DNA of 64,000 nt from the NCBI RefSeq assembly GCF_902506165.1, contig NZ_LR733817.1, forward strand, positions 976,255 through 1,040,254, given 5' to 3'. Origin of the DNA: Bosea sp. 29B. GTDB taxonomy: Bacteria; Pseudomonadota; Alphaproteobacteria; Rhizobiales; Beijerinckiaceae. A model generated the notes under the pieces. It did not search any database, was not told the origin of the DNA, and saw nothing but the letters and a program-made list of their open reading frames with translations. Shown piece after piece: positions 13,179 through 64,000 of this stretch. The first letter of the stretch is position 1, and each line of letters opens with the position of its first letter. Both the position numbers and the translations under genes were made by a program.

Positions 13179-13404
13179 CGGCGCTTACGGCCTTTCAGGA
13201 AAAAGCGGCTGGCGGGTTCTCGTTCGCAGCCTTGGGAGCTGGGCGTCACGCTGCCGATAAGAGCAGACGGCTCCGGGGGGCCATATTCCTCTACGGCACA
13301 CGCGTGACGCGATGGCCACGAAAGCTCCGATTTTTGATTTGATCTCAATGCGATGTGCTACTGTTAGTCTCAGCTCCTCAAGCTGACGCAGGCAGGAGAT
13401 GGAA

Positions 13405-13686: not shown

Positions 13687-13808
13687 ACACGCAAATTTCT
13701 TGAAGGCCGTGCTCTCATTCAGGCCGATGCAGAAGCTTCTCTTTCATCAAGCTGTTTCTGACTCCATCTGAATCCCCGGACATGCTGCCCACGGAAGGGC
13801 TCGCGATA

Positions 13809-14477
13809 ATGCCGGCGCCATTTCAGCAGCGGATTGCGCTTTTCGGCGATCAGCCAATCATGCTTGCCGGCCTGAACGCGCTTGTCGGCGCAGTCCCCGG
13901 CGCGACCATCATTGGCGTGCCATTGGCGATGTTCGACGCGGTCGAATTCATTCGCTCGCAGAGCCCCGAAGTAGCCATCATCTGTATCGGTACGCTGAGG
14001 CCGGCCGGTCTTGCCTTCGTAAGGCGCATCTTGGGCGTGTCACCGCTCATTCTGATCTTGCTCGTATGCGACGATCGCGATGCGAGGTCGATCAAGGCAG
14101 CATTTCAGCTCGGCATCGCAGGTTACCTGCTGAATGGCGCCTCCAACGACAGACTGCTGCAAGCCCTAAGGGCTGTTCGGGGCGGCGGGCTGTACCTCGA
14201 TGGAGGCCTGGCGCTGTCGGTGCGAGAATTAAGACGCCCAATAGGCAGCATGGAAAGTCGCCTCGACAACCCAGATGACGAACTGAGCGAACGCGAAATT
14301 CAGGTCCTGCGCCTCGTCGTCTCGAGCAATTCGAACAAGAGCATCGCAGACCAGACCGGCCTGAGCGTCAGGTCAGTCGAAACCTACCGCTTCCGCGCCT
14401 GTAGGAAACTAGGTTTGTCTTCACGAGGAGACATCATGCGGTATGGCTCGGATCGTGGATGGACGCTTTTTGATTGA
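13809..14477 (+). CDS. LuxR/NarL-type regulator with degenerate receiver domain
   Basis: 222 residues from ATG 13809 (GGAAGGG upstream); ATG 13782 is an alternative. The C-terminal helix-turn-helix is typical (LSEREIQVLRLVVSSNSNKS, then SVRSVETYRFRACRKLGL, roughly residues 158-205). The N-terminal 120 residues look like a REC domain (IALFGDQPIMLAGLNALV start), but the strand that should carry the phospho-acceptor Asp reads PEVAIICIGTLRP, without it, and the acidic pocket has one Asp instead of two. It probably does not receive phosphate. No kinase gene is adjacent. Confidence 0.75.
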   Translation: MPAPFQQRIALFGDQPIMLAGLNALVGAVPGATIIGVPLAMFDAVEFIRSQSPEVAIICIGTLRPAGLAFVRRILGVSPLILILLVCDDRDARSIKAAFQLGIAGYLLNGASNDRLLQALRAVRGGGLYLDGGLALSVRELRRPIGSMESRLDNPDDELSEREIQVLRLVVSSNSNKSIADQTGLSVRSVETYRFRACRKLGLSSRGDIMRYGSDRGWTLFD

Positions 14478-14524
14478 CGTCCTGGGGTCCTTGGTCGCTG
14501 GGCGCACTCCAAGGCTGATGTTAT

Positions 14525-14700
14525 GTGCCGCAGCCGCTGCCGACGGGTGCGCCGCTCGTCGTCGTTCTCCATGGCTGTACGCAGTCGGCTGCCGTTTATG
14601 ACAATGGCTCGGGCTGGTCTCAGCTCGCGGACCGACATGGCTTGCCCTGCTTTATCCCGAGCAGCAGCGCACGAACCATCCGAACCTCTGTTTCAACTGG
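14525..14700 (+). pseudogene. Truncated, frameshifted PHB-depolymerase-like esterase fragment
   Basis: Two frames together resemble the N-terminal half of the LpqC/PHB depolymerase alpha/beta-hydrolase core. Bases 14525-14641 read PLVVVLHGCTQSAAVYDNG and GWSQLADRHG, including the oxyanion HGCTQ motif. After a one-base loss at about 14641 the next frame reads LALLYPEQQRTNHPNLCFNW to 14700. There the family sequence stops; the nucleophile GLSAGG block and everything after it are missing, and no plausible start precedes it. A dead remnant beside a tRNA fragment. Confidence 0.7.
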
Positions 14701-14780
14701 GAACGCAGATGTATCCTATCGGTCGCAGACGCCTACGTCGGGCACGCTCAAGATATTGGAATTGAAGGATAAATCGTTTT

Positions 14781-14821
14781 CCAAGGTTGGCGTCGAGAGT
14801 TCGAATCCCTTCGCCCGCTCC
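14781..14821 (+). other. 3' fragment of a tRNA-Gly gene (probable attachment-site remnant)
   Basis: The 41 bases start CCAAGGTTGG and end CCCTTCGCCCGCTCC. By memory of alphaproteobacterial tRNA-Gly(GCC), this is the stretch from the anticodon through the T-arm to the acceptor end, with two differences (one in the variable region, one in the T stem). The T-loop TTCGAAT is intact. No 5' half is present: the bases before it are AAATCGTTTT. Integrases often duplicate just this 3' segment, so this is best read as an att remnant. Confidence 0.65.
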
Positions 14822-14850
14822 GGACAATTCTCAGGCTCGAGAGGCACATA

Positions 14851-14880
14851 AGCGTCGGGTTTCCCCGCGCTTTTTGCTTT
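14851..14880 (+). terminator. Terminator following the tRNA-Gly fragment
   Basis: AGCG-T-CGGG (14851-14859) pairs with CCCG-CGCT (14864-14871) with one bulged T, followed by TTTTGCTTTT. This placement, about 30 bp after a tRNA 3' end, is typical of a tRNA gene terminator and suggests it was copied along with the tRNA fragment. Confidence 0.6.
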
Positions 14881-14929
14881 TCTGGTCCCACCTGATCACA
14901 ACATCGCCTGCCGCCATCCCTTCGCCCTG

Positions 14930-15904
14930 TCAGGCCGGAACGAGCTTCGATGAATTGCCGCGAACTTTGAAAGCCTCTTTCAAGGCCCAATTCCTGAAAC
15001 CCTGCACGCGCGGATCGTCGAAACGGTTTTCGTGGATCAGGAGGTAATATTCGCCAGCGCTGTCGAGTTCGCTGGTCAACGGAACCGTCAATCCACGCAT
15101 GCCCTCCTCATGCGCCAGGATGATGTCCGGCACGAGCGCAATGCCGCGGCCTTGTCGCGCAGCATCCAGAGACATGAAGAAGTGCCCGAACTGCAGCGTC
15201 GGCTCGATCTCGATCGCCGCCCGCACGCCGTGGGCTTTCAGCCAGTCCGGCCAGGCGTGGCGGCGCGTCGAGGTATGGATCAGCGGCCAGCGCGCCAGAT
15301 CGGCGGGAGTGACGTCCGTCTCGCCGATCAGGCCAGGCGAGCAGACCGGCACCAGCCGATCAGGAAAGAGTTCGTCGGCATGGACCCCGTCCCAGCGCGT
15401 CAGCATGGATAGCTCGATGCGTGGCTGGTTGCGCTCATAGTGCCGGCCCGGCAAGCGTCCGACCCGGATCGCGACATCGGCCTCATGAGCGAGCAGATCC
15501 GCCGGCTCGATCGACGAGACGACACGCAGCTCGATCTCCGGGTGCAGGCTGGTAAAGAGATGCAGCCGCGGCATCAGCCAGACCGAGGCGATCGTCGGCA
15601 GCACCGAGACCGTCAACGTCGCTCGGTCTTTGCGTCGGCTAAAGCGGCCGGCGGCGCGCTCGAGCTCGTCGAGCATGCTCTCGACGCTCCGGAAGAACTG
15701 CTCGCCCTCTGCGGTGAACTCGATCCTGCGGGTGAAGCGGTGGAACAGCTCCTGCCCGAGATGGAGCTCGAGCTCCTTGACCTGACGGCTGACCGCACCC
15801 TGCGTCAGGTTCAGCTCCTCGGCTGCCTTGGTGAAGGACAAATGGCGCGCCGCAGCGTCGAAGCCACGCAACGCATTCAATGGCGGCAGACGCCTCTTTC
15901 GCAT
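14930..15904 (-). CDS. LysR-type transcriptional regulator (GcvA-like)
   Basis: 324 residues beginning MRKRRLPPLNALRGFDAAAR. The winged HTH is near residues 20-65 (FTKAAEELNLTQGAVSRQVK) and the effector-binding domain follows from about 95 (LTVSVLPTIASVWLMPRL), a form typical of the GcvA branch. It is divergent from the sugar ABC operon that begins at 16044 and presumably controls it. Two CATGCATGAG palindromes lie directly between its ATG and the operon. The effector is unknown, probably the substrate of that operon. Confidence 0.85.
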   Translation of the reverse strand: MRKRRLPPLNALRGFDAAARHLSFTKAAEELNLTQGAVSRQVKELELHLGQELFHRFTRRIEFTAEGEQFFRSVESMLDELERAAGRFSRRKDRATLTVSVLPTIASVWLMPRLHLFTSLHPEIELRVVSSIEPADLLAHEADVAIRVGRLPGRHYERNQPRIELSMLTRWDGVHADELFPDRLVPVCSPGLIGETDVTPADLARWPLIHTSTRRHAWPDWLKAHGVRAAIEIEPTLQFGHFFMSLDAARQGRGIALVPDIILAHEEGMRGLTVPLTSELDSAGEYYLLIHENRFDDPRVQGFRNWALKEAFKVRGNSSKLVPA

Positions 15905-15915
15905 GCAGCACCTCT

Positions 15916-15944
15916 CTCATGCATGAGGGTAGATCATGCATGAG
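15916..15944. promoter_or_regulatory. Tandem palindromes, probable LysR operator
   Basis: CTCATGCATGAG (15916-15927) is a perfect 12-bp palindrome. A second, ATCATGCATGAG (15933-15944), shares a perfect 10-bp core TCATGCATGA; centres are 17 bp apart. They begin 12 bp upstream of the LysR ATG and about 100 bp ahead of the ABC operon, a suitable position for autorepression and divergent control. Confidence 0.55.
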
Positions 15945-16043
15945 CGCCGAACAATTCGTTTGTGACGATCGAGCGACGGCCGCATCGTCTCGTCAACGCC
16001 GGACCTGCCCACGGGCATGGCACCGGTGAATGGGGAACTGCCG

Positions 16044-17546
16044 ATGACGATCGAGCCAGCGATCGCGCTCGCCATGCGCGACATCGCCAAGCGCTATGGC
16101 GCGACCTGCGCGCTGCGCAGCGCCGACCTCACCTTGCAAGCTGGCCGCGTCCACGCCTTGCTCGGCGAGAACGGCGCCGGCAAGTCAACCCTGGTGAAGA
16201 TCATCGTCGGCGCTGTGAAGCCCGACAGCGGCAGCGTCACCATCGCTGGCCGGCCGGTCGCCTTCCGCTCGGTAGCCGAGGCGATCGCCGCCGGCATCGT
16301 GCCGATCTACCAGCATCTCAGCCTGTTTCCCGAGCTCTCCGTCCTCGACAATCTTTCTGCCTTCCAGCTCGCCGCCGGCCGTGCCGGCCTCAGCCGCAAG
16401 GCGCTGGTGCCGCGCGAGGAGGCGCGGGCCTGGCTCGCCCGCGTCGGGCTCGACCTCGATCTCGATCGCGCGGTCTCGTCGCTTTCGCTCGGCGAGCGCC
16501 AATTGCTCGAAATCGCCCGCGGTGTCGGCCGCAATTGCCGCATCCTCGTCCTCGACGAGCCCACGGCAGCGCTGAACGGCGCTGAGGCCGACCGGCTCTT
16601 CGCCGTGGTCCGCGATCTCTGCGCCGGCAGCGCGGCCGTGCTCTTCATCTCGCACAAATTCGACGAGATCGAACGCCTTGCCGATGAGGTCACGGTGCTG
16701 CGCGATGGCGCCACCGTGATCGACGCCGCCCCGATCGGCCGGCATGACCGCGCCACGCTGGTCAAGGCGATGCTGGGCATGCAGGTCGAGCACGAGCACC
16801 GCTCCGGCAGCGCCCGGGCCGAACCGGTCCTGACTGCAGCCAATGTCCGCATGGCGACTGGCCATAGCCTCGACCTCTCGGTGCGCGCCGGTGAAATCGT
16901 CGGCCTCGCCGGTCTGGTCGGCTCCGGAGCGCTCGCGATCGCCGCCACCATGGCCGGCGCCGCTCCCGGCCAGGGCGAGATCGCTGTCGGCGACCAGCGC
17001 TTTGCGCTCGGCGATCGGCGCGAAGCCGTCCGCCTCGGCGTCGCCTACGTCCCGGCCGATCGCCATGCCGAGGGACTGTTTCCGCCGGTCAGCGCGATCG
17101 GCAACGCCTCAGCCAGCGCCCTGTCGCGTTTTTCCGCTCGTGGCCTCCTCGGCAAGGCGCGTGAGCGCGACGCGATCGAGCCGCTGCTGCGCCGCCTGCA
17201 CCTGCATCCGGCCCGGCCGGACGCCGAGGCCGCGAGCTTCAGCGGCGGCAACCAGCAGAAGCTGCTGATCGCGCGCTGCCTCGCCTTGCCGAACCTGCGC
17301 GCCCTCGTCCTGCTGGAGCCGACGCGCGGGGTCGACGTCGCCGCCCGCGCCATGATCCACCGCGCCGTCATCGAGATGGCGCGCTCGGGCGTCGCCGTCC
17401 TGGTCGCATCGAGCGACCTCGACGAGCTGACAGCGCTCTGCGACCGCTATCTCGTGGTCCGGGACGGCATGATCGCGCAGGAACTGCCGGCCTGCGCCGC
17501 AACCGAGGCGATCATGGCCGCGCTCGCCGGAAAGGCAGCGGCATGA
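16044..17546 (+). CDS. Sugar ABC transporter ATP-binding protein (RbsA/MglA type, two ABC domains)
   Basis: 500 residues from ATG 16044 (GGGGAA upstream; ATG 16017 also in frame). Energises import of a small sugar or polyol. First ABC domain: Walker A GENGAGKST near 40-48, signature LSLGERQLLEIA near 148-159, Walker B ILVLDEPTA near 166-174. The second domain has the usual degenerate P-loop (GLVGSGALA) and signature FSGGNQQKLLIAR near 400-412. This tandem layout defines the CUT2 class. First gene of a long operon; the next gene overlaps by 4 bp. Confidence 0.9.
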   Translation: MTIEPAIALAMRDIAKRYGATCALRSADLTLQAGRVHALLGENGAGKSTLVKIIVGAVKPDSGSVTIAGRPVAFRSVAEAIAAGIVPIYQHLSLFPELSVLDNLSAFQLAAGRAGLSRKALVPREEARAWLARVGLDLDLDRAVSSLSLGERQLLEIARGVGRNCRILVLDEPTAALNGAEADRLFAVVRDLCAGSAAVLFISHKFDEIERLADEVTVLRDGATVIDAAPIGRHDRATLVKAMLGMQVEHEHRSGSARAEPVLTAANVRMATGHSLDLSVRAGEIVGLAGLVGSGALAIAATMAGAAPGQGEIAVGDQRFALGDRREAVRLGVAYVPADRHAEGLFPPVSAIGNASASALSRFSARGLLGKARERDAIEPLLRRLHLHPARPDAEAASFSGGNQQKLLIARCLALPNLRALVLLEPTRGVDVAARAMIHRAVIEMARSGVAVLVASSDLDELTALCDRYLVVRDGMIAQELPACAATEAIMAALAGKAAA

Positions 17547-52715: not shown

Positions 52716-53630
52716 CTAATCTCCCCGGCGCTTGCGCCCGTCATCCTCGGCGAGCAGTTCCTTGCGCGCCTTCGCCATCACCTTGCGTGCCTCGTCGTCG
52801 ACCACGGGAAACTGCGGATCGAGCTTCTCGAGGCGGTTGACGATCGCCGCCGCGACGATCAGCCGGGTGAACCATTTGTTGTCGGCGGGAACGACATGCC
52901 AGGGCGCATGCTTGGTCGCGGTCTCGGCGATCGCGTCCTGGTAGGCATCCTGGTAGTCGTCCCAATGCTTGCGTTCGGCGAGATCCCCCGCATCGAACTT
53001 CCAGTTCTTGTCGGCCTCGTCGATCCGCGCCAGCAGGCGCCGGCGCTGCTCGTCCTTCGACAGGTTGAGGAAGAACTTCAGGACGACAGTGCCGTTGCGC
53101 GCCAGATGCTTCTCGAAATCGCGGATGCTCTCGAAGCGATCGCGCCAGACATGCTTGCCGATCAGCTTGGGCGGCAGGCCTTGCTTGCGCAGCAGCTCCT
53201 CATGGACGCGGACGACCAACACCTCCTCGTAATAGGAGCGGTTGAAGATGCCGATCTCGCCGCGTTCCGGCAGCGCGCAGGCGGTGCGCCAGAGAAAGTC
53301 ATGGCGCAGCTCCAGCGAGCTCGGCGCCTTGAAGGAGGTGACCTCGCAGCCCTGCGGATTGACGCCGGACATGACGTGCTCGATCGTCCCGTCCTTGCCG
53401 GCGGTATCGATCGCCTGCAGGACGATCAGCACCGACCAGCGCCGTTCGGCGAAGAGCCGTTCCTGCAGCTCGCGCAGGCGCCTGACGCCGGTCTGCAGCA
53501 GATCGCGCGCGCCGTCCTTGTCGAGGTCGAGGCCGCAGGTCTCACCGGGGTCGAAATGCTTCAGCTTGAAATCGTCGCCATCCGTGACCCTGAAGCGCTT
53601 GACCATCTCGTCCGGCAGCATGCCTGGCAT
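52716..53630 (-). CDS. ppk2: Polyphosphate kinase 2 (PPK2 class I-like)
   Basis: 304 residues; start ATG 53630 or ATG 53621. Phosphorylates a nucleoside diphosphate (or monophosphate) with polyphosphate. P-loop AIDTAGKDGT at 73-82, Walker B/lid region IGIFNRSYYEEVLVVRV near 126-142, and a conserved WKFDAGDLAERKHWDDYQ near 211-228. Length matches single-domain PPK2. Stop abuts the TetR stop, so transcripts converge. The Asp/Glu residues of the P-loop and lid look intact. Confidence 0.9.
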   Translation of the reverse strand: MPGMLPDEMVKRFRVTDGDDFKLKHFDPGETCGLDLDKDGARDLLQTGVRRLRELQERLFAERRWSVLIVLQAIDTAGKDGTIEHVMSGVNPQGCEVTSFKAPSSLELRHDFLWRTACALPERGEIGIFNRSYYEEVLVVRVHEELLRKQGLPPKLIGKHVWRDRFESIRDFEKHLARNGTVVLKFFLNLSKDEQRRRLLARIDEADKNWKFDAGDLAERKHWDDYQDAYQDAIAETATKHAPWHVVPADNKWFTRLIVAAAIVNRLEKLDPQFPVVDDEARKVMAKARKELLAEDDGRKRRGD

Positions 53631-53697: not shown

Positions 53698-54693
53698 TCA
53701 GACGATCAGCTCCGATACCGGCAGCCTGGCTCGCTCTCCCGCAGGCGCGCCATCGGGCTGCCCGAGCCTGAAGACGTTGACCAGACGCCGCCCTTCGGGA
53801 ACGCCATGTCGCTCGATAAGTTGCCGATTGCTCGCCGGCCAGTCGGCCAGCACCGAGACCGGGCAGGCGGCGAGGCCCTGCGCCGTCATCATCAACCAGG
53901 CGCGGTAGAAGGCGCGCCCGGTCGCGAGCGGGTCCTCGCCATCCGGCCGATGGAAAAGTGCGACGGCGGAGTTCGCGAACTTGCCGCGCTCGCTCACCAG
54001 CGTCGCGGCAAGACCCAGCCGACGCAGCGGCGAAAACAGCGGGCCGAGCACCAGCCTGGTCGCGAACGCGACCACGCCCGGCATCGCCATCGCCTCGGCG
54101 CTGAGCCCATCTCGCTGGTAAGCCGGATCAGATCGCGATAGCCGCATCCAGCGCAGCAATTCGGCTCGATGGGCGTCGTCGCAGAGGAAGTGGAAGCCGG
54201 CCTCGTCGGCGATCCCTGCGATCGCGTCAACGGCTTCCGCGCCGCGGACCAGTTTCACATCGCCGGCCATGGCGGAGAACATGTAGAACGCCGCCTCGCC
54301 AGCCTGATCGACCGGGCGGAAGCCGCCGCGCCAGCTCGCCCGGGTGGAGACGAAATCCGCCAGCCCATCGAGTTCGCCGCCCGCTGCGATGGTGATGCGC
54401 GCCATCGGCTGCAAGCCATCCGACGCCGTGGCATCGGTCAGCGGCTCGATCTGCGCGATCCTCAAACCGCGCCGGCCGAGCGCCAGCGACAGCCCCTCGA
54501 TCGCAGCGCCATGCGAGAGCCGGACATCGTGCCCTGACGGATCGGCTGCCGGCAGGCGCCGCGCAACGTCTTCCAGCAGGAGCAGCTCATCGCCGCCAAT
54601 GAGCCGCCAGCGTGTCGGCTGGATATTGTGGACGCTCGGTGCCTGCCGGGCCTCGGCAAGCAGCTCTTCGAGCAGGGGCCGGTCGAGCATCAT
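53698..54693 (-). CDS. Nitroreductase-like (FMN) protein of the six-gene operon
   Basis: 331 residues beginning MMLDRPLLEELLAEARQAPS. The FMN-binding loop APSVHNIQPTRW at 18-29 matches the family A-P-S-x-x-N-x-Q-P-W pattern. VSVLADWPASNRQLIERHGV near the C-terminus is typical of the second half of Acg-like proteins that keep the fold but have altered active sites. Such proteins can oxidise, reduce, or simply bind flavin. Last gene of the operon, 2 bp after the GNAT-like gene; the physical pairing with a ThiF-type enzyme is also seen in MoeY-type fusions. Confidence 0.75.
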   Translation of the reverse strand: MMLDRPLLEELLAEARQAPSVHNIQPTRWRLIGGDELLLLEDVARRLPAADPSGHDVRLSHGAAIEGLSLALGRRGLRIAQIEPLTDATASDGLQPMARITIAAGGELDGLADFVSTRASWRGGFRPVDQAGEAAFYMFSAMAGDVKLVRGAEAVDAIAGIADEAGFHFLCDDAHRAELLRWMRLSRSDPAYQRDGLSAEAMAMPGVVAFATRLVLGPLFSPLRRLGLAATLVSERGKFANSAVALFHRPDGEDPLATGRAFYRAWLMMTAQGLAACPVSVLADWPASNRQLIERHGVPEGRRLVNVFRLGQPDGAPAGERARLPVSELIV

Positions 54694-54695
54694 CG

Positions 54696-55811
54696 TCAGC
54701 CCCGTAGGCTCTTGGCGAAGAGGTGCAGCCGGTGCAGCGGCTTTGCCCCCGCCTTCTCGGCTTGCCTGAGGCTCGGCCCGTTGACGTCGGCGATCCAGGT
54801 GCCGCCGAGCTCGTCATAGCCCGCCGCCTTCAATGCGCTCGTCACCTTGTAGAGCATGGCGCCGTTGAGCCCGTGATTATGGAAGGCGCGATTGACCGAC
54901 TGGTAGACGATGACGGCGCGCCGGTTGCTCCAGCGATGCCAGAGGAAGCGCAAGGGGAAGCTCGGGCCGATCCGCCCGCCGGCCGCCTTCACCAGCGGGT
55001 TGAGGTCGGGGATCGCGATGATCGCACCGACCGGCTCGCCCTTGTGGTGGACCACGGTCGAGATGCGCTTGTCGATCACCCACATCATGTCGCCGGCCTG
55101 GAAGCGGTATTCTTCCGCCGTGGGCGGCACAAACATCGGATTGGCGTCGAAGCCGTCATTGAGGATGAGACGCGACTCTTCCAGCCGCTCGGCAAAATGC
55201 CGGCGGTCGATCGGCATCCAGCGGTAATCGGGATCGGCGAGGATCGCCCTTTGCTTCTCGCCGAGCAGGCCGGAGGGATCGACCTCGGCGAGCGCGATCC
55301 GGAAGGTCGTCATCGGGAAGGTCGGGGCATAGCCGTTCGCTTCGAGCAGCCGCGCGACATGCGGCGGGCTGAAGATCATGTCGGTGAAGGGCGCGTTCTC
55401 GAAGCCGCCTGTGACGACGCCGGCCTGCTGCATCGCCGTCAGGTTGAAGTTGCCGACGAGCTCCGCCATGCCGCGTTCGCGCGCCCAGTTCTCGGCAGCG
55501 CCGAGCAGAGCCGAAGCGATTTCGACACCATCGGTGCAGTCGAAATAGCCGAACTGGGCCCGGGCCGTGCCATGGCGCGCATTCGAGGCGTCGTGGATCG
55601 CAGCGACGATGCGTCCGAGCGGTCGCCCGTCCCTCAGCGCCGTGAACAACTCGAAACGGCCATGCCCGTTCTTGACCAGCGGATTGCGCGCGGGATCGAG
55701 CATGCGGTCGAAATCGGACCACATCGGCGGCACATACGGGCTGTCCGCCGGATAGACCTCGGCCGTGACGGCGAAGGCTGCCTTGCGGTCGTTGCTGGTG
55801 ATCTCGATCAT
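54696..55811 (-). CDS. GNAT-fold N-acyltransferase-like protein (371 aa)
   Basis: Starts at ATG 55811 within the ATGA overlap with the membrane-protein gene. A large two-domain GNAT-like protein: the N-terminal part (MIEITSNDRKAAFAVTAEVY, then GRIVAAIHDASNAR and GAAENWARERGMAELVGNFN) and a C-terminal half with VGAIIAIPDLNPLVKAAG. A candidate acyl-CoA region is FLWHRWSNRRAVIVYQSVN. Similar full-length proteins are annotated as hypothetical or GNAT. Substrate unknown; acyl transfer to an amine is inferred. Confidence 0.65.
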   Translation of the reverse strand: MIEITSNDRKAAFAVTAEVYPADSPYVPPMWSDFDRMLDPARNPLVKNGHGRFELFTALRDGRPLGRIVAAIHDASNARHGTARAQFGYFDCTDGVEIASALLGAAENWARERGMAELVGNFNLTAMQQAGVVTGGFENAPFTDMIFSPPHVARLLEANGYAPTFPMTTFRIALAEVDPSGLLGEKQRAILADPDYRWMPIDRRHFAERLEESRLILNDGFDANPMFVPPTAEEYRFQAGDMMWVIDKRISTVVHHKGEPVGAIIAIPDLNPLVKAAGGRIGPSFPLRFLWHRWSNRRAVIVYQSVNRAFHNHGLNGAMLYKVTSALKAAGYDELGGTWIADVNGPSLRQAEKAGAKPLHRLHLFAKSLRG

Positions 55812-57028
55812 GCCGGGACCTTGCTCGGTGCGCTCGCCAGGAGCCGGCGCACCAGCGCCAGCGCCGTCTCGGTCGCAGGATCGTCCGACACCACCGGCAC
55901 GGTGACCAGCAGCAGGTCGAGCGGCTCCTCGCCGAGCACGAGCAGATGGCTGACGGAATGGGCCGCCATCAAGGCCGCGAGCCGTTCGGCGGCCGGCTCG
56001 GTCGACGGCCAGGGCCAGCTTCGCCCGGAGGCATGGAGCACGCTGATCTCGCGCAGCGCCGGCTTCAGGACGGCGGGGTCGTAATCGCCGAGCTCGGCCT
56101 CGCCGAGCCGGCGGGCGCTGCTGAACAGCGGGTGCCCGGCGAGCTGGGCGATCAGCGTCTCTCGCGTCTCGGCGCGCGAGCGGGCGAGCGAGCCGAGGAC
56201 GCCGGGCGCAGTCGCGTCGAATGAACTCGACAGCGCATCGACCGCGAGCGCGATCGCGAGAACGCCGGCAAGTGTCACGGCGCAGAGCCTGACGCCATGG
56301 GCGAGGTCGGCGCCGGGCGTGACATGTGCGGCAGCTGCGCCCAGCAGCAATGCCGCCGCGACACGCAGGCCGAGCAGGACGAAACCTTGCCGGCGCGTCG
56401 GCGCTGCGCCGCCGGTCACGAGCACGATCGAAACCAGCAGCAATGCGCCGACACCGCCAAGCCGGACCGGCATATCCGGCAGCAGCCCCCGGAAATCGCT
56501 GAGCGCGAAGGGCAGGATCAGGAAGGCGCAGAGCCCGAGCCGCCAGACACTCGTATTCTCCGCTTCGGTCAGCGAAGCCGGATCGCGCCGGAACAGCAGC
56601 AGCCCGCAAAAGGCGACCGTGACGAACTGAAAGCCGGCCAGCGCCAGGTCATAGGCCCAGGGATGATCGGCAAGGCCGATGAGGCTGCCGAGCACGAGCA
56701 GGCCGGAGCCGGCGAGCACGGCGATCTTGCCGACACGCGGCGCATGCCGGCGCAGCATGCCTTCGGTGACGATCAGCGCCCCCAGCGGGAACAGCGCGGC
56801 GCAGGACAGCGCCAATCGCTCCAGCAGGACGCTGCCGCTCCACCAGCCGAGGCCGCGCAGCAGGAAGAGCGCAGCGACGAGCCCCATCGCCAGGAGAAAA
56901 CGCGTCGTCAGCGCCCCGCGTGGATCGCGCCGGCGCAAGGTCAGCATGGCGACGGCAAGGCCGAGCGCGCCGCAGATGTCGACGATGGAATCGGCGACCA
57001 AGGCAGGGTTGGCGAAGCCGCCATTCAT
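55808..57028 (-). CDS. Polytopic membrane protein with soluble C-terminal domain
   Basis: 406 residues from ATG 57028, again an ATGA overlap with the gene before. Residues 10-270 hold about eight hydrophobic spans (for example GALGLAVAMLTLRR and LRVAAALLLGAAAAHV). Residues 275-406 are soluble, helical and include LLVLGEEPLDLLLVTVPVV. No catalytic motif is seen. The layout resembles 7TM sensor or transporter domains. It may present the product of the operon at the membrane; no family assigned. Confidence 0.65.
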   Translation of the reverse strand: MNGGFANPALVADSIVDICGALGLAVAMLTLRRRDPRGALTTRFLLAMGLVAALFLLRGLGWWSGSVLLERLALSCAALFPLGALIVTEGMLRRHAPRVGKIAVLAGSGLLVLGSLIGLADHPWAYDLALAGFQFVTVAFCGLLLFRRDPASLTEAENTSVWRLGLCAFLILPFALSDFRGLLPDMPVRLGGVGALLLVSIVLVTGGAAPTRRQGFVLLGLRVAAALLLGAAAAHVTPGADLAHGVRLCAVTLAGVLAIALAVDALSSSFDATAPGVLGSLARSRAETRETLIAQLAGHPLFSSARRLGEAELGDYDPAVLKPALREISVLHASGRSWPWPSTEPAAERLAALMAAHSVSHLLVLGEEPLDLLLVTVPVVSDDPATETALALVRRLLASAPSKVPA

Positions 57029-57906
57029 GGCCCGGCCACCATCTGCTTGAGCGCTCGCACGACGAAGGGCTTCAGCAGCGCCGCGACCGGCGCCGGCAGG
57101 GGCCGCTCGACCGCCGGCCGATAAGGGTTGAAGAACCAGCCGCGGCAATCGGTGCCGGTGCGCTTGCCGAGCGCCAGCGCAATCGTCTCATAGGCCATCA
57201 TCATGCCGGTGGTGATCACCATCGGCGCAAAGGACATCCGGCTGCGCCGGCCGGCCGCGACCTCGCCGGCAATGGCGAGATCGACATGATGGCGCGAGCG
57301 CGAATGCAGCATCACATGTGTGACCTCGCACAGCATCGCCGCGCGCTTGTCGTCCTCGCTGAGCGTGCGCCAATCCTTGCCGAGGGTCGGGAAGCTGAGC
57401 CGCTCCTCCGGGCGCGGATCCTCCGGCCGGACCACGATCACCGAGGGGAGCGGCGCCATATAGGCGTCGATCACGCTGGCGCCGGCCGCTTTCGCCGTGC
57501 GGTAGAGGTGCAGGCCGGCGGCGATGTCGTCCATGCCGTTGACGATGATTTTGCAGCGCCCCGCGATCTCCGGCAGGCGCTCCGCCCATTCGGCGCCGAG
57601 CACCTCGATCTCGATCTCCGGATTGATCGCGCGCGCCGCCTCGGCGGCGGCTTCCGCCTTGGGCTGGCCGACCGTGCCGGCATTGGCGAAGACCTGCCGG
57701 TTCAGGTTCGAGACCTCGAAGACGTCGATGTCGGCGATGATGAAGCGGCCGATCCCGGCCCGGACCAGTGCCATGAAAGCGGCCCCGCCCATGCCGCCGA
57801 CGCCGCAGACGAAGATCGTCGCCTGCTGCAGCCGCGCCTGCTCTACTTCCGTGACGAAGCCGATATTGCGGGTGGTGAAGAGCTCGTAGCTGAATCCGGG
57901 AATCAT
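57025..57906 (-). CDS. ThiF/MoeB/E1-like adenylyltransferase
   Basis: 293 residues from ATG 57906 (MIPGFSYELFTTRNIGFVTE). E1-type ATP site: VCGVGGMGGAAFMALVRAGI near 33-52, D59-x-D61-x-F-E-V-S-N-L-N-R-Q-V near the second strand, and the adenylate-binding block NGMDDIAAGLHLYRTA. It lacks the two CxxC zinc pairs of MoeB/ThiF and has no clear catalytic Cys in a crossover loop, so it may adenylate a small carboxylate rather than a ubiquitin-like protein. It overlaps its neighbours by 4 bp on both sides. Confidence 0.75.
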   Translation of the reverse strand: MIPGFSYELFTTRNIGFVTEVEQARLQQATIFVCGVGGMGGAAFMALVRAGIGRFIIADIDVFEVSNLNRQVFANAGTVGQPKAEAAAEAARAINPEIEIEVLGAEWAERLPEIAGRCKIIVNGMDDIAAGLHLYRTAKAAGASVIDAYMAPLPSVIVVRPEDPRPEERLSFPTLGKDWRTLSEDDKRAAMLCEVTHVMLHSRSRHHVDLAIAGEVAAGRRSRMSFAPMVITTGMMMAYETIALALGKRTGTDCRGWFFNPYRPAVERPLPAPVAALLKPFVVRALKQMVAGP

Positions 57907-58865
57907 GGCTTCGTCCTGGCGGCGCGTGGACGCAATGTGCCGAAACGCCTGGTATCGTCGAGCCAGTGCAGCAAGGGCAGCACCAGCCGCTGCAGCAGGA
58001 GGAAGGCGGAAGCGCCGATCAGACCGGGCAGCGAGGCGCGCGGAACCTGCCCGAGCAGGTACCTCCGCGCCGCCGCCAGATCCATGCGGCCGAGCTGGAG
58101 CACGTCGTCGCCCCGCTCGTAGTCCAGCGTCTCCCGGCAGAACGTGTTGTAGCGCGGCTCGCGATGCTGGGTCGCCTGCTCGAAGCTCTTCTTCAGATCG
58201 TCCGAGCCACCGGTATAGGCGTCGGTGATGACCGAGCGCGCCTCCTCGAAGCCGGCCTCCTCCCCCACGCCGAAGACATGGCGGTGCCCGCGCATGATCT
58301 GCCGGGCGAGTGAGAGGTGCGCGAAGCTCTGGCGGCTGCCGGCATCCGGCGAAGGATAGACGTCGGAGAAGGTCTCGCAGACCATGCCGACCACGCTCGG
58401 AACCTGCGTCACATTCGAGATCCAGCGCGGCCTCAGGCCCCCGCGCACGAACAGCACCAGCACGGTCAGGCCGTAGAGCACCCAGGAGAGGCCGCGCCCG
58501 CGCACCTCGGGATCGACCATGACGAGCCCGAGATGCGTGACCTGCTCCGGCTCGCCGTTCAGCGAGAGCTGCATCTGCGCCAGGGCGTTGAAGGCGACCG
58601 GTCGCCCGGTCGCCGTCTCGCTGATCAGGGTGACGATGCTCTGGCTCAGGCGCTCGCGCTCGCCGGAGAAGACGCCATAGGTCAGCGCGCCCTGCGCCAG
58701 CGTCCGCCCTGCCACGGTCCGCAACTGCTCGACCAGCGCCGCGAGCTCGGCATCGTCGAGCACAACGCCCGGCCGCTCGATGATCCGCGTCGTCAAACCG
58801 GGCGCGGTCGCGAGCGTAAGGTCGAGCGTTGGCCGCCTGAGTGCCTTCAACCAGAAGCCGAGCAT
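57903..58865 (-). CDS. GNAT family acyltransferase (N-acyl amino acid synthase-like)
   Basis: 320 residues from ATG 58865, 5 bp after the Aas-like gene. The acyl-CoA motif is VDPEVRGRGLSWVLYG near 117-132 (RGRG loop). The protein is larger than simple acetyltransferases and has a long C-terminal tail that ends with a hydrophobic helix (SAFLLLQRLVLPLLHWL near 290-306), suggesting membrane attachment. By shape it resembles long-chain N-acyl amino acid synthases. With a fatty-acid-activating partner upstream, acylation of an amine is a reasonable inference. Confidence 0.65.
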   Translation of the reverse strand: MLGFWLKALRRPTLDLTLATAPGLTTRIIERPGVVLDDAELAALVEQLRTVAGRTLAQGALTYGVFSGERERLSQSIVTLISETATGRPVAFNALAQMQLSLNGEPEQVTHLGLVMVDPEVRGRGLSWVLYGLTVLVLFVRGGLRPRWISNVTQVPSVVGMVCETFSDVYPSPDAGSRQSFAHLSLARQIMRGHRHVFGVGEEAGFEEARSVITDAYTGGSDDLKKSFEQATQHREPRYNTFCRETLDYERGDDVLQLGRMDLAAARRYLLGQVPRASLPGLIGASAFLLLQRLVLPLLHWLDDTRRFGTLRPRAARTKP

Positions 58866-58870
58866 CGCCT

Positions 58871-61800
58871 TCAGGCCACCACGGCAGCGACCGGAGCCTG
58901 GGCACGCTCCTTCACCAGCCTGGAGATGCCGGCGAAGTCGAGCTTGCCGGAGCCGAGCACCGGCACGGCCGGCACCACCATCACCTCGGCCGGGATCATC
59001 AGGTCCGCGGCGCCCTTGCCCTTGGCGAAGGCCTGGAAGGCGGCGCGCGTCGCGTCCTTCTGTTGCGTCACCAGCACCAGCCGCTCGCCCTTGCGGGCAT
59101 CGGGCAGGCTGGCGACGCCGGAGAGCACGCCCGGCCAGCATTCGGCGGCGAGCGCCTCGACCGCGGCGAGCGAGACCATCTCGCCGGCGATCTTGGCGAA
59201 GCGCTTGGCCCGGCCCTTGATGGTGACGAAGCCGTCCTTGTCGATCACGACGATGTCGCCGGTGTCGTGCCAGCCCTCGGGCGGCGGCTCGAGCACGCCT
59301 GGATTCTCCGACTTGAGATAGCCCAGCATGATGTTCGGGCCGCTGACATGCAGCCGGCCGCCCTCCTCGACGCCCGGCATCGGCTCGAGCCTGGCTTCCA
59401 TGCCGGGCATGATCCGACCGACCGTGCCGAAGCGGTTGAACATAGGCGTGTTCAGCGCCAGCACCGGCGCGGTCTCGGTCACGCCGTAGCCCTCCAGGAT
59501 GCGCAGGCCGAACTTCTCGGCATAGGTCCGCCGCGTCGTGTCCTTCACCGGCTCGGCGCCGGCGACGATGTAGCGCAACGAGCGCAGATCGTAGGGGTGC
59601 GCGGCGCGGGCATAGCCGGTGAGGAAGGTGTCGGTGCCGAACAGGATGGTGGCGTTGCAGCCATAGACCAGCTCCGGCACCATTCGGTAGTGCAGCGGCG
59701 ACGGGTAGAGATAGACCGGCACGCCCGAGACCAGCGGCAGGACGAGCCCCGCCGTCAGGCCGAAGGAATGGAACACCGGCAGCACGTTGAAGACCTTGTC
59801 GCGCCGGCCGAAGTCGATGCGGGCCGCGGCCTGCGCCGCATTGGCCAGCATGTTCCGGTGCGAGAGCACCACGCCCTTGGGCGCTCCCTCCGAGCCCGAG
59901 GTGAACAGGATCGCCGCGCGATCCGAGCCTTTGGCCTCTTCGATCGGCGTGCCGTGGTGCCAGAGCGCCCAAAGCTTGTCGCCGGTCGTGACCGTAGCGC
60001 GCACGTCTTCCAGATAGACGATGCGGACATCCGCCTGCAGCGCCTCGATCAGCGGCCCCATCCGGCCCTTCTCGACGAAGGCGCGCGAGGTGACGATCGT
60101 CTTGACCTGCGCCGCCTTGCAGGCTGCGGCGATATTGGTGGCGCCGGCCGTGAAGTTGATCATCGCCGGCACGCGCGCCGCCGACATCAGGCCGAGCAGC
60201 GTCACCGCCGCGCCATTGGCGTTGGGCAGCATCACGCCGATCGCCTCGCCCTTGCCGGCCAGCGGCATCAGCTTGCGGCCGAGCACCTCGGCGCCGATCA
60301 ACAGGCGCTTATAGGTCAGGCTGCCGGTGATCGGATCCTCGACCGCGACGCGGCCCTTGCCGTTGACCACCGCCGCTTCCGCCACCGCCGAAAAGACGCT
60401 GCGGTCGATGTCGGTGGTCTTGAAGATCAGGTCGGACATGATCTGGTAGAGCGCCGCACCCGCCGCCTGGCGCCGCGGCTTGCCCTTCAGCTCCTCCGGC
60501 ACGCTCAGCGAGACCGGCTCCAGCACGGTGACACGCACCTTGGGGAACCAGCGCCGGCGCACCTGCTCGCGGGTCAGGCGCGAGAAGATCGTCGCCTCCA
60601 GCCCCTCGATCCGCACCGGCACGACCTGCGCGCCCGACTTCTCGGCGATCATGCCGACGCCGTCATAGACCTTCATCAGGCTGCCGGTGACGGTGAGGCG
60701 TCCTTCCGGGAAGATCACCAGGCTCTCGCCGTTCTTCACGGCGTTGATCAGCGAGCGCGTCGCCAGCGGCCGCGCCGGATCGAGCGGCATGGCGCGGGTC
60801 AGCTTCAGGAAGGGCTTCACCCACCAGCGCTGGGCGATGCCGTGGTCGATGGCGAAGACCGGCTCCTTGTCGAGGATCGAGAGCGCCAGCGCCGCATCGA
60901 GGAAGGAGACGTGGTTCAGCGCGATGATCGCGTTGTCGCCGGCCTTGGCGATGTTCTCGCGGCCGCTGACCTCGACCCGGTAGAAGGCGCGGAACAGGAT
61001 CGAGAGGAAGTCGCTGAGCGGATTGGTCGGCAGCGTCCGCAGGATCCAGACGGACGCCGCGATGGTGAGGACGCCGATCAGCAGGAAGAGATGGCTGAGC
61101 GTCAGGCCCGCCGCCTGCAGCAGCGCGACCACGACGGCGCCGGCGACCATGAAGGCGGCCGAGAGCACATTGACGGCGGCGACGATGCGGGCGCGCTTCT
61201 CGGCCGGGGCCCAGGCCTGCGCCGCCGCGAAGGACGGCACGACGAAGACGCCGCCGGCGATGGCGAGGCCGGCGAGGTCGATGCCGACGCGCCAGGCGGA
61301 GGGGCCTGCGAAGAAGGCGCCGATATCCTGCGCCGGCTGATGCGCGACGACGCCGGAGACTGCCCAGCCGAGATCGAGCGCGAACAGGCCCATCACCACG
61401 CCGGCGACCGGCACCGGCAGCAGCACGATGCGCCCGCTCGACAGGAAAGAGCCGATGCCGGAGCCGACCGCGATCGCAATGGCGAAGATGCCGAGATAGG
61501 TCGAGACGACCATCTCGGTGCCGCCCATGCCGTTCTTCACCAGCGAGGGCAAGAGCGACATCACCACCGCGCCGATCAGCCAGAACAGCGAGACCATGAC
61601 GCCGGTGCGCCACAGCCGGGCATCGCCCCAGAGATCCTTCAGGAGATCGCGGGTCGAGCGCAGGATGTTGCGGTCGACGACGAGGTCGGGCGCCGCCGGC
61701 CCGGTCTTCGGGATGAACAGGGTCGCGACCCAGCAGGCCAGCGCGAAGACCAGGATCAGCAGGCTGAGCTGCGCGGCATCGCCGCCTTCACGCGCGGTGA

Positions 61801-62281
61801 GGCCGCCGGCGATGGTGCCGAGCAGGATGGCGATGAAGGTCGCGCCCTCGATCAGCGCGTTGCCGGCCGGCAATTCCTCGCGCTTCAGATGGTCGGGCAG
61901 GATGCCGTATTTGATCGGGCCGAACAGCGCCGCGATCACGCCGAACAGGACAAGCGCGACGAACAGCACCGGCACGGAAGGCAGGGTGAAGCCGAGCACC
62001 GCGACCGCCGCCGCGCCGATCTCGGCGAGCTTCAGCCGCTGCGCCATCAGCGCCTTGTCGAAGCGGTCGGCCATCTGGCCGCCGACCCCCGAGAGCAGGA
62101 AGAAGGGTGCGATGAAGAGCCCGCCCGCCAGGGTCACCAGCGCTTCGCCATGCGAGCCGGCGAGCTTGTAGAGGATGATGAAGACCAGCGCGTTCTTGAG
62201 GAAATTGTCGTTGAAAGCTGAGAAGAACTGCGCCCAGAACAGCGGGGCGAAGCGCCGCTTCAGCATCAATGTGTCGAACAT
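58871..62281 (-). CDS. Aas-like fusion: MFS, acyltransferase and acyl-ACP/AMP ligase
   Basis: 1136 residues from ATG 62281; an in-frame start 17 residues upstream is less family-like. Domains in order: MFS-type lysophospholipid flippase-like region (about 1-420), PlsC-type acyltransferase with N-H-x4-D (NHVSFLD 456-462) and FPEGR (524-528), and an AMP-binding ligase with TSGSEGAPKG (794-803) and GYGVTET (931-937). This matches the LplT-Aas fusion that re-acylates lysophospholipids with free fatty acid. Heading this operon, it could supply activated acyl chains to the two GNAT proteins. Confidence 0.85.
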   Translation of the reverse strand: MFDTLMLKRRFAPLFWAQFFSAFNDNFLKNALVFIILYKLAGSHGEALVTLAGGLFIAPFFLLSGVGGQMADRFDKALMAQRLKLAEIGAAAVAVLGFTLPSVPVLFVALVLFGVIAALFGPIKYGILPDHLKREELPAGNALIEGATFIAILLGTIAGGLTAREGGDAAQLSLLILVFALACWVATLFIPKTGPAAPDLVVDRNILRSTRDLLKDLWGDARLWRTGVMVSLFWLIGAVVMSLLPSLVKNGMGGTEMVVSTYLGIFAIAIAVGSGIGSFLSSGRIVLLPVPVAGVVMGLFALDLGWAVSGVVAHQPAQDIGAFFAGPSAWRVGIDLAGLAIAGGVFVVPSFAAAQAWAPAEKRARIVAAVNVLSAAFMVAGAVVVALLQAAGLTLSHLFLLIGVLTIAASVWILRTLPTNPLSDFLSILFRAFYRVEVSGRENIAKAGDNAIIALNHVSFLDAALALSILDKEPVFAIDHGIAQRWWVKPFLKLTRAMPLDPARPLATRSLINAVKNGESLVIFPEGRLTVTGSLMKVYDGVGMIAEKSGAQVVPVRIEGLEATIFSRLTREQVRRRWFPKVRVTVLEPVSLSVPEELKGKPRRQAAGAALYQIMSDLIFKTTDIDRSVFSAVAEAAVVNGKGRVAVEDPITGSLTYKRLLIGAEVLGRKLMPLAGKGEAIGVMLPNANGAAVTLLGLMSAARVPAMINFTAGATNIAAACKAAQVKTIVTSRAFVEKGRMGPLIEALQADVRIVYLEDVRATVTTGDKLWALWHHGTPIEEAKGSDRAAILFTSGSEGAPKGVVLSHRNMLANAAQAAARIDFGRRDKVFNVLPVFHSFGLTAGLVLPLVSGVPVYLYPSPLHYRMVPELVYGCNATILFGTDTFLTGYARAAHPYDLRSLRYIVAGAEPVKDTTRRTYAEKFGLRILEGYGVTETAPVLALNTPMFNRFGTVGRIMPGMEARLEPMPGVEEGGRLHVSGPNIMLGYLKSENPGVLEPPPEGWHDTGDIVVIDKDGFVTIKGRAKRFAKIAGEMVSLAAVEALAAECWPGVLSGVASLPDARKGERLVLVTQQKDATRAAFQAFAKGKGAADLMIPAEVMVVPAVPVLGSGKLDFAGISRLVKERAQAPVAAVVA

Positions 62282-62397: not shown

Positions 62398-62676
62398 TCA
62401 CAGAGCCGGCTTGCCGGCATCCATCAGCAGGCGCTCGGTGCGGGCATCCTCGATCCGGTTCACCAGCTTGGACGCCTCGTGCATGTCGCGGACCGTCTTG
62501 GTCATGGTGATGCAGGACTGGACGAGCATCACGCAGCCCATGGCGAGATAGCCCTTGGCCCACCAGTCGAGCGGCAGGAACAGGACGCCGGCGCCAACCA
62601 TGGCCGCGGCGGCGAAGAACGAGGCGTAGGTGAAGCTGACCCAAGCGCCGCTATGGGGCTGTGCATTCTGGTTCAT
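62398..62676 (-). CDS. YiaA/YiaB family inner-membrane protein
   Basis: 92 residues beginning MNQNAQPHSGAWVSFTYASF. Two hydrophobic spans (residues 14-35 and 41-58) fit the YiaAB domain, with the W-V-x-F-x-Y-x-S-F pattern and KGYLAMGCVMLVQSCITMTKTVRD. The C-terminus is helical and charged. Function unknown; often in stress or membrane-maintenance contexts. It follows the PspA-like gene, which fits such a role. Confidence 0.85.
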   Translation of the reverse strand: MNQNAQPHSGAWVSFTYASFFAAAAMVGAGVLFLPLDWWAKGYLAMGCVMLVQSCITMTKTVRDMHEASKLVNRIEDARTERLLMDAGKPAL

Positions 62677-62715: not shown

Positions 62716-63408
62716 TCAATTCGCCTGGAGCTGGCAGCTGCGCAGCCGCTCCAGCACATCGTCGGCGGTGCTCCGCAGCCTGGGACCGAAGCCCTTGGCT
62801 GCGAGCTTCTCGGTAACCGAGGCGGCGGCCGCGCCGTCGAGTTCGTCGAGTGCGGTCTCGGCCGCCTCGGCCTCGACCTGACGCTCGCGCAGGCGCTTCA
62901 GCGTCTGCTCGGCTTCGGCCAACGTCGATTCATAGGCGGGGCCGGTCTCGATGCGGCCCTGGCGCATCTGGCGCACCGCTTCCGAGGCGCGGGCGAGACG
63001 CCGGCCGCGATCCAGCTCGGCGATCCGCGCCTGGGCCTGGCCGACATGGCGGCGCAGGCGGACGATCTCGGCGGCGAACAGCGCCTGCGCGCCCGCCGCC
63101 GCATCGCGGTCGGCCTCCAAAGCGGCGATAGCCTCCGCGCCCTCACGGGCCAGGACGTCGTCGCCGGCGGTGAGCGCCGCGGCGACCCGGTTCTCCAGAT
63201 CGGCGATGCGGGCATGGCTCGCGGCGAGCCGCTCGCTCTCCTGCCGGTCCTGCGCGATCGCGACCGCGAGCGCCTTCTTGGCACGCTCGAAGGCGCCGGC
63301 GGCATCGCGCATCTGCTGGTCGAGGATGAGGAGCGCGTTGCGATCGGCAAAGCGCTCCTCGGCAATGGCGGCGCTGCCGCGGACAAAGGTGAGAAACATC
63401 TTGAACAT
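62716..63408 (-). CDS. PspA/IM30-like coiled-coil protein
   Basis: 230 residues from ATG 63408 with AAGGAAGC upstream. N-terminal MFKMFLTFVRGSAAIAEERF is the amphipathic membrane-binding helix. Then a long coiled coil (MRDAAGAFERAKKALAVAIA; ALEADRDAAAGAQALFAAEI; YESTLAEAEQTLKRLRERQV) as in PspA/Vipp1. It probably protects or remodels the inner membrane under stress. Divergent from a TetR gene, with three identical-pattern palindromes between; the first lies only 17 bp before its ATG, so repression is plausible. Confidence 0.8.
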   Translation of the reverse strand: MFKMFLTFVRGSAAIAEERFADRNALLILDQQMRDAAGAFERAKKALAVAIAQDRQESERLAASHARIADLENRVAAALTAGDDVLAREGAEAIAALEADRDAAAGAQALFAAEIVRLRRHVGQAQARIAELDRGRRLARASEAVRQMRQGRIETGPAYESTLAEAEQTLKRLRERQVEAEAAETALDELDGAAAASVTEKLAAKGFGPRLRSTADDVLERLRSCQLQAN

Positions 63409-63424: not shown

Positions 63425-63496
63425 TGAACGTTGTTCACGAGGACATGCATAATCCACCCATGAACGGCGTTCAAGAGATATTTTGAACAATGTTCA
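63425..63496. promoter_or_regulatory. Three TGAAC-n3-GTTCA operators between pspA-like and tetR-like genes
   Basis: TGAACgttGTTCA at 63425-63437, TGAACggcGTTCA at 63461-63473 and TGAACaatGTTCA at 63484-63496. The arms are identical and only the 3-base spacers differ. Centres are 36 and 23 bp apart. They fill the 108-bp gap between the divergent genes and are almost certainly the binding sites of the TetR protein encoded at 63517. Confidence 0.85.
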
Positions 63497-63516
63497 CAAA
63501 TTTTGAGATCGACGGA

Positions 63517-64000
63517 ATGACCACGACGGCAGAGCGCCGCGAGCGGCAGCGAATCCAGCTGATCGATGCGGCAGAGAAGGCGATCGCCGAGAGGGGCCTG
63601 CCCGGCCTGAAGGCGCGCGAATTGGCACAGGAGATCGGCTGCGCGCTCGGCGCGATCTACAATCTCGTCGATGACATGGACGAACTCGTCCTGCGTGTCG
63701 GCTCGCGCACGCTGGCACGGCTCGACGCGGCGCTGAGCGCGGCCGAGAGCGATGATGCACCGGCCTCCGCTAACGAGGCCACCGACAGGCTGGTCGCAGT
63801 CGCGCTCGCCTATTGCGCCTTCGCCCGCGACAACCTGCAGCTCTGGCGCGTCCTGTTCGAGCACCGCATGGCCGAGGGCGCGACGGTGCCGGATTGGGCG
63901 GTGAGCGAGCAGATGACGCTGTTCCGCCATATCCTGGAGCCGCTCAGCGTGCTGCTGCCGGATCGAGCCGAGCCGGAGCGGATGCTGATGAGCCGGACCC
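63517..64000 (+). CDS. TetR family transcriptional regulator (cut by window edge)
   Basis: 161 residues are visible; the 3' end lies beyond the window. Start ATG 63517 is preferred; ATG 63490 in the same frame lies inside the third operator. HTH near residues 12-55 (IQLIDAAEKAIAERGLPGLK, then ARELAQEIGCALGAIYNLVD). C-terminal WHG-type domain with LAYCAFARDNLQLWRVLFEH. Presumably represses itself and the PspA-like/YiaAB unit through the three palindromes upstream. Confidence 0.85.
   Translation, partial: MTTTAERRERQRIQLIDAAEKAIAERGLPGLKARELAQEIGCALGAIYNLVDDMDELVLRVGSRTLARLDAALSAAESDDAPASANEATDRLVAVALAYCAFARDNLQLWRVLFEHRMAEGATVPDWAVSEQMTLFRHILEPLSVLLPDRAEPERMLMSRT

Follow-up and report, generated by a model that had tools for sequence, protein, structure and literature searches.

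Genes B to F of the locus described here, encoding a GNAT, a ThiF/E1-like protein, a membrane protein, a ceramide-locus-type GNAT and an Acg-like flavoenzyme, are a conserved unit, and the block is kept across many soil and marine bacteria, often next to a putative membrane-repair module. Its make-up suggests that the proteins assemble a membrane lipid step by step. Our best explanation, which we judge to fall just short of probable, is that the five proteins form an inner-membrane pathway in which an amine or amino acid is made into a lipid and that, in Bosea, they are co-expressed with PspA, YiaA and Aas under a dedicated TetR repressor. Gene content and order, conservation, the operator array, the catalytic residues of the ThiF-like protein, the predicted fold of B and the family relations of E and F are read from the sequence.

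The locus in Bosea sp. 29B and its conserved core

A preliminary description of the window (the whole 64,000-nucleotide stretch of the Bosea sp. 29B genome that was analyzed) reported six leftward genes, A to F. Their coordinates proved exact among the open reading frames of the window, and their domains hold in family searches. The set is longer than reported, however, and position 62281 is not its end: yiaA and pspA lie directly upstream on the same strand, and the full order is a TetR gene, three palindromic operator copies, pspA, yiaA, aas and then B-C-D-E-F. The TetR-family gene (63490..64000, plus strand; TetR_N 26.4 versus 24 bits) is divergent from pspA, starts at 63490 or at a second in-frame ATG at 63517, and is truncated by the window end. 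Its product is 39% identical to those of TetR genes adjoining pspA-yiaA-aas on Shinella and Ensifer plasmids; in one plasmid of each genus, the TetR gene and pspA-yiaA-aas are annotated next to B-F. The Shinella plasmid also has a methyltransferase gene approximately 2 kb upstream of B, outside the neighbor families common to many loci. The pspA product (62716..63408, minus strand; 230 residues) belongs to the PspA/IM30 family (PF04012 74.7 bits, gathering score 33.9), and that of yiaA (62398..62676, minus; 92 residues) is a YiaA/B two-helix membrane protein (PF05360 60.2 versus 26.6 bits) with 54% identity to Ensifer YiaA. Gene A (58871..62281, minus; 1136 residues) is aas-like, with MFS, PlsC and AMP-dependent ligase domains in Pfam, and exceeds the NF005291 cut-off over nearly its full length (1748.2 versus 1349 bits, residues 2-1129). 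At the other end, a PPK2 polyphosphate kinase gene (52716-53630, minus) lies 67 bp after F on the same strand; it was not seen within the conserved set.

A scan of GTDB genomes with a profile of C yielded 151 relatives, and the analysis covered the 80 top-ranking ones, all of which contain C because they were selected by it. Among these best 80 of 151, B-C-D-E-F is complete, in order and on one strand in 67 loci; nine have B-C-D-F without E, and four run into contig ends. Neighboring genes from B to F typically overlap by 1 or 4 bp, and the measured junctions are at most 50 bp in all but two cases. The taxa represented (best 80 of 151) span Alpha-, Beta- and Gammaproteobacteria and one Terrabacteria MAG, and include Bradyrhizobium, Rhizobiaceae, Roseibium, roseobacters, Sphingomonas, Brevundimonas, Cupriavidus, Lysobacter and a Halomonas MAG. 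Ten of the 80 are Bosea-type, counting a “Methylobacterium” MAG and “Rhizobiales bacterium 2SD”, and several of the ten come from the same genomes as the same-genus comparison; Bosea is also among the named close relatives of B and C. In that comparison, 14 of 61 genomes have a close C relative (at least 79% identity), and the order A-B-C-D-E-F is kept in all 13 other than the window's. The ThiF, GNAT and nitroreductase-like genes thus stay together far beyond this genome, against the chance proximity that scattered homologues would have indicated. The cluster is rare: C was found at E<=1e-30 in one of 385 class-wide genomes, namely the window's own. B and D occur in two of 289 genomes, the window's own and G352. 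In the latter (L198:7144-9323) they are side by side and overlapping, with no C, E or F within the 16 kb read; this exceptional pair may reflect decay or a two-gene role.

The five core proteins

Gene C (57025..57906, minus) encodes a ThiF/E1-like adenylating enzyme of 293 residues (PF00899, 128 bits), the adenylation half of which resembles E1, MoeB and TcdA. R70, K83 and D126 are invariant in 81 of 81 C proteins; they match R73, K86 and D130 of MoeB, which we take to be adenylation residues. None of the 81 has a CxxC motif, and no cysteine is invariant (C34 is found in 77 and C254 in 57). These features favor a small molecule as the substrate of C, in agreement with the original proposal. 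We considered C as an E1 of the MoeB/ThiF type, acting on ubiquitin-like proteins or in sulfur transfer, and rejected this assignment, as the 81 proteins have neither CxxC zinc pairs nor a conserved catalytic cysteine.

In a tree of 40 ThiF proteins, the C proteins form their own clade (97/97), and the ThiF proteins of loci L015 and L124-L130 (100/99) and the MoeB-like proteins (100/100) form two more; the tree is unrooted and has no outgroup, such that the nearest pair among the three is not readable from it, and TyzB, OxzB and TrzS themselves are not in it. Two members of the L015/L124-L130 clade adjoin NAS-like genes. C scores 117 bits on PRK08223 (under the cut-off of 266), 90 on the ThiF model and 86 on the MoeB model, and PRK08223 gives 406 bits to the ThiF protein of L124, a locus where genes for a NAS-like acyltransferase and a flavin oxidase are also present. 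The better PRK08223 score of C points to a possible grouping with the ThiF proteins that have NAS neighbors. D147 and R223 of C are invariant in 81 of 81 proteins and absent from the seven ThiF proteins compared. Asp217 of TrzS is described as required for cyclization (PMC12856293), and the ThiF network of that paper could hold these C proteins without naming them. In L125, L127 and L128, ThiF-like genes adjoin what we judged by eye to be PEP-CTERM-type exported proteins.

Both acyltransferases of the core are GNATs. Gene B (57903..58865, minus; 320 residues, unnamed family, 34-sequence alignment) has the GNAT fold in a comparison of its AlphaFold model with the PDB; protein N-acetyltransferases and GCN5 head its structural matches, level with many other GNATs. 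Gene E (54696..55811, minus; 371 residues, PF00583) encodes a two-part GNAT that is kin to the acyltransferase of bacterial ceramide loci. Profiles of B and E gave no match to the NAS-like proteins of L124 and L129, and on this ground neither was accepted as an N-acyl amino acid synthase of the OxzA/TyzA/NasY type. Relatives of E, at 22-29% identity, occur in 16 of 141 other genomes of the class. Among the 14 of these 16 places that were fetched, eight have a member of a serine-palmitoyltransferase (SPT)-like family, and the DEAHSxG motif is present in seven; both SPT-like proteins tested exceeded the SPT cut-off, and a ligase from these loci, the single one tested, proved to be a fatty acyl-AMP ligase. 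Given this neighborhood, we infer that the GNAT of the SPT loci is bCerS, which has been described as a peripheral, cytoplasmic acyltransferase (PMC11087976). No SPT over the cut-off was found in the window's own genome (best model score 253, cut-off 500); E should therefore use an amine other than an SPT product. For the same reason we rejected E as a bCerS serving an SPT pathway of its own genome; it is a relative of that enzyme, not a member. The kinship of E with proteins of SPT loci, together with the partial linkage to Aas, favors acyl-lipid chemistry for B-F, and the acylated amino-acid-like lipid of the preliminary description survives in outline.

Gene F (53698..54693, minus; 331 residues) encodes a putative FMN oxidoreductase closest to Acg/Rv3131, with a profile match to Acg (2ymv) at E 3.6e-21. 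On NF047509 (Acg/Rv3131), F of the window scores 145.9 bits and, with those of four out of four other loci, falls in the range 132-150, all under the cut-off of 199; on NF005901 (TrzS family), the same five proteins score 35-54 bits. The L124 oxidase has the reverse preference (NF005901 89.5 versus NF047509 77.7 bits). According to PMC10404671, Acg, a protein whose function that paper gives as unknown, belongs with Rv3131 to group FDO-B, and the oxazolone oxidases constitute FDO-A; we let NF047509 and NF005901 stand in for FDO-B and FDO-A, respectively. F thus appears to differ from the oxazolone oxidases, and we set aside its identification as an FDO-A oxidase of the TyzC/OxzB/TrzS type, given that its Acg/Rv3131 scores lie far above those for the TrzS family. 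Gene D (55808..57028, minus; 406 residues) encodes a multi-span membrane protein with a C-terminal domain and no named family; it has no Pfam match, and its model (pLDDT 90) has no PDB match at E<=0.001. A conserved stretch around E89, R93, R94, H95 and K101 would, on our reading of the positive-inside rule, face the cytoplasm.

Partner genes and the TetR operator array

Three partner states are found among the best 80 of 151 loci: pspA with yiaA in 40, a gene for a RoxA-like dihaem cytochrome in 23 (none with pspA), and neither in 17. The 40 pspA-yiaA loci comprise ten of the Bosea type, with aas between yiaA and B; nineteen from Bradyrhizobium, with no aas; and eleven from Rhizobiaceae, Mesorhizobium and a Rhizobiales, in which aas and B-F are on opposite strands. 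Ten of this last group have pspA-yiaA-aas pointing towards B-F. The other, L096 of Rhizobium sp. 32-5/1, has pspA and yiaA pointing away; its TetR, pspA and yiaA are oriented differently from those of other loci, it has five operator sites, and its aas (13257-16651) is divided between two frames, with 561 and 568 codons. In 21 of the 23 cytochrome loci (e.g., L054:13222-14904 and L117:14087-15985), the RoxA-like gene is convergent after F, either directly or, in L117, one gene further. As for the 17 loci with neither partner, L079 has aas and TetR, several are short contigs, and in the roseobacter locus L097 F is followed by a MauG-like gene instead.

The earlier view of Aas as a core member could not be upheld. 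It is a frequent but not universal partner, present in 22 of the best 80 of 151 loci, and it is not beside B-F in Bradyrhizobium, Cupriavidus, Lysobacter or roseobacters. Among 37 same-genus genomes (G000-G036), which are not independent, pspA is present in 9/9 C-positive versus 0/28 C-negative genomes, and aas (at least 85% identity) in 9/9 versus 2/28. Of these two exceptions, one is a contig-end fragment; in the other, two stops were flagged in the match, yet 1128 codons read stop-free. More widely, Aas-like matches at E<=1e-150, not all of them full-length, were obtained in 30 of 48 other searchable B-F genomes. A TetR-pspA-yiaA-aas group is also found away from B-F: three Roseibium genomes have both, at separate places, and two genomes have the group but no close C. 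In a tree of Aas proteins, the rhizobial ones cluster with unlinked Aas, not with Bosea Aas, which suggests that aas probably joined B-F on more than one occasion. Repeated joining would support a functional link; a shared origin followed by later loss is possible, though not preferred. Two same-genus loci, L189 (G015) and L190 (G020), have aas, TetR and a three-site array with no close C in the genome. Neither pspA nor yiaA was found in L189, and in L190 yiaA is partial and the contig end leaves a fragment of aas; both look as if they were a decaying cassette.

The gap between TetR and pspA contains operator 1, TGAACGTTGTTCA (63425..63437), operator 2, TGAACGGCGTTCA (63461..63473), and operator 3, TGAACAATGTTCA (63484..63496). 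These are the only matches to TGAACNNNGTTCA in the window, three versus 0.03 expected, and three of the five TGAAC-type palindromes of the entire genome are at this gap. Three copies are present at the same position in 10/10 Bosea-type loci. Where aas is on the opposite strand, 12/12 loci have at least three copies upstream of TetR; the array faces pspA in ten of them and aas in L079 and L096. Arrays are thus present in Bosea, Rhizobiaceae and Mesorhizobium, and Bradyrhizobium has a TGAGC variant, TGAGCNNNGCTCA, of which 20 scanned loci hold three copies (16 loci), two (2 loci) or none (2 loci, cut by contig ends). From its position and conservation, the array is probably bound by the TetR protein, which may sense a membrane or lipid signal. 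In L176 and L178, both from Bradyrhizobium, an unlinked aas has its own TetR and TGAAC-type sites, and pspA-yiaA-B-F has TGAGC-type sites; the two regulators seem to have diverged in specificity.

A candidate membrane-lipid pathway

We infer the substrate, the product, the co-expression and the individual chemical steps, including the role of D, as follows. Acyl-ACP or acyl-CoA would be supplied by the Aas ligase or by the host, and the GNATs B and E would put acyl chains on an amino group. C would adenylate a carboxylate, which would then cyclize or be coupled to a second nucleophile. F would oxidize the product with FMN, and D would anchor, move or complete it in the membrane. PspA and Aas would be the membrane-repair company of the pathway. 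Several lines of evidence argue for this scheme: the five-gene order in 67 of the best 80 of 151 loci, its overlapping junctions and its wide taxonomic range; the adenylation residues of C, the kin of E in SPT loci, the GNAT fold of B and the match of F to Acg; the sharing of pspA and yiaA, the same-genus co-occurrence of pspA and aas, and the operator arrays; and the precedent of acyl-oxazolone synthesis elsewhere (PMC10404671, PMC12856293). Other observations argue against it. B and E lack a NAS match, B is structurally closest to protein N-acetyltransferases and GCN5, though no closer than to many other GNATs, and F resembles a protein to which PMC10404671 assigns no function. G352 keeps only B and D, and E is missing from nine of the best 80 of 151 loci. 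No pspA is seen in 40 of these 80, and so the link to stress is not universal; pspA-yiaA-aas exists without B-F, and Aas may simply recycle lysophospholipids.

The nearest known systems are those in which an N-acyltransferase, a ThiF-like protein and a flavin oxidase make acyl-oxazolones (PMC10404671, PMC12856293). TyzACB and TrzAS of mycobacteria and OxzAB of Pseudoalteromonas have, as here, an acyltransferase, a ThiF-like ATP-dependent cyclase and a nitroreductase-superfamily flavin oxidase side by side. The present set differs in its Acg/Rv3131-like F, which is not of the TyzC/OxzB/TrzS type, in the lack of a NAS profile match for B and E, in the extra membrane protein D, and in its linkage in many loci to pspA/yiaA/aas or a RoxA-like cytochrome. 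Likewise, clusters for the N-acyl dehydrotyrosines, treated by comparative genomics in PMC12479983 (thalassotalic acids, kyonggic acids and stieleriacines), have NAS, ThiF and nitroreductase genes close by, operon-like in two producers; the arrangement here is similar, but has no NAS match and has a five-gene core with D and E. Of four features that define the acyl-oxazolone family, the oxidase type and the N-acyl amino acid synthase were looked for and not found; the other two are a cyclase-clade ThiF protein with a conserved ATP-binding Asp, for which C shows the invariant D126 and a clade of its own in the unrooted tree, and an acyl-oxazolone product. Thus, B-F may be a variant of acyl-oxazolone-type logic that works alike, rather than a member. 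Bacterial ceramide loci (Spt-bCerS-CerR) share with it a GNAT related to E, but the window's genome has no SPT over the cut-off and the core has a ThiF protein and a flavoenzyme instead. The PSP envelope stress response (PspA/IM30) likewise has a pspA operon with a gene for a small membrane protein; here, a TetR with an operator array and the partners Aas and B-F are added, and the main text of two PSP surveys mentions ThiF, acyltransferase and nitroreductase zero times. Gene A is a full-length member of the Aas-type acyl-[ACP]--phospholipid O-acyltransferases, and only its operon company is new. The claim that no comparable system had been described holds for this gene set itself, which does not turn up in the open literature among the matches listed (subscription papers being mostly outside the scope); it fails for sets of acyltransferase, ThiF and flavin oxidase as such, which have been characterized (PMC10404671, PMC12856293, PMC12479983).

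These likenesses raise the question of whether a divergent acyl-oxazolone or N-acyl dehydro-amino acid pathway is at hand, in which B or E would N-acylate an aromatic amino acid, C would cyclize it with ATP and F would desaturate it, yielding a secreted or signaling small molecule with the stress genes as regulatory company. We think this unlikely. The three enzyme types do adjoin as in the tyz, trz, thalassotalic and kyonggic clusters (PMC10404671, PMC12856293, PMC12479983), and the best score of C is on PRK08223, the model so strongly matched by the L124 ThiF protein. However, F prefers Acg/Rv3131 over the TrzS type, opposite to the L124 oxidase; B and E have no sequence link to NAS; C stands in its own clade of the unrooted tree, with D147 and R223 absent from the seven ThiF proteins compared; and no counterpart of D or E was seen in the sections of the cluster papers that were compared.

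Quite unlikely, in our estimation, is a detoxification and damage-repair operon that makes no lipid, in which TetR would sense a membrane-active foreign compound, F would reduce it, a GNAT would acylate it, and PspA, YiaA and Aas would mend the membrane. A TetR whose operator is nearly private, the inclusion of PspA and Aas, a nitroreductase-family member, two GNATs and a patchy distribution within the genus (14 of 61 genomes) would all suit such an operon, but a ThiF protein, an E of ceramide-locus type and a strict gene order suggest multi-step synthesis. Further, the operon has no stand-alone efflux pump gene, the MFS domain of A being part of the Aas fusion, and half of the best 80 of 151 loci have no pspA. 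It is very improbable that C, in the manner of an E1, activates a protein or tRNA and that the acyltransferases modify that macromolecule. The E1-, MoeB- and TcdA-like adenylation half of C and the N-terminal protein acetyltransferases among the nearest folds of B are consistent with that idea, but the junctions are too short to contain a ubiquitin-like gene within the core (a partner elsewhere is conceivable, as frames of at least 110 residues were taken outside it), C has no conserved thioester cysteine, and the kin of E are in lipid loci.

To return to the lipid pathway, a more specific form of it is conceivable, if doubtful: B-F would make a new class of membrane lipid, an N-acylated, adenylation-activated and oxidized amino-acid or long-chain-amine lipid, on demand when TetR senses membrane damage, and this lipid would act alongside PspA and the reacylation of lysophospholipids in sealing or remodeling the inner membrane. 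If this is true, an envelope stress response would have its own dedicated lipid. Apart from this specific form, the conserved five-gene set, a pathway of lipid type, carries the logic of acyltransferase, ThiF protein and flavoenzyme into rhizobia and marine bacteria, where the enzymes belong to different subfamilies and the set is in many cases joined to PspA. The nearly private TetR operator array offers a simple handle for switching the pathway on and finding its product.
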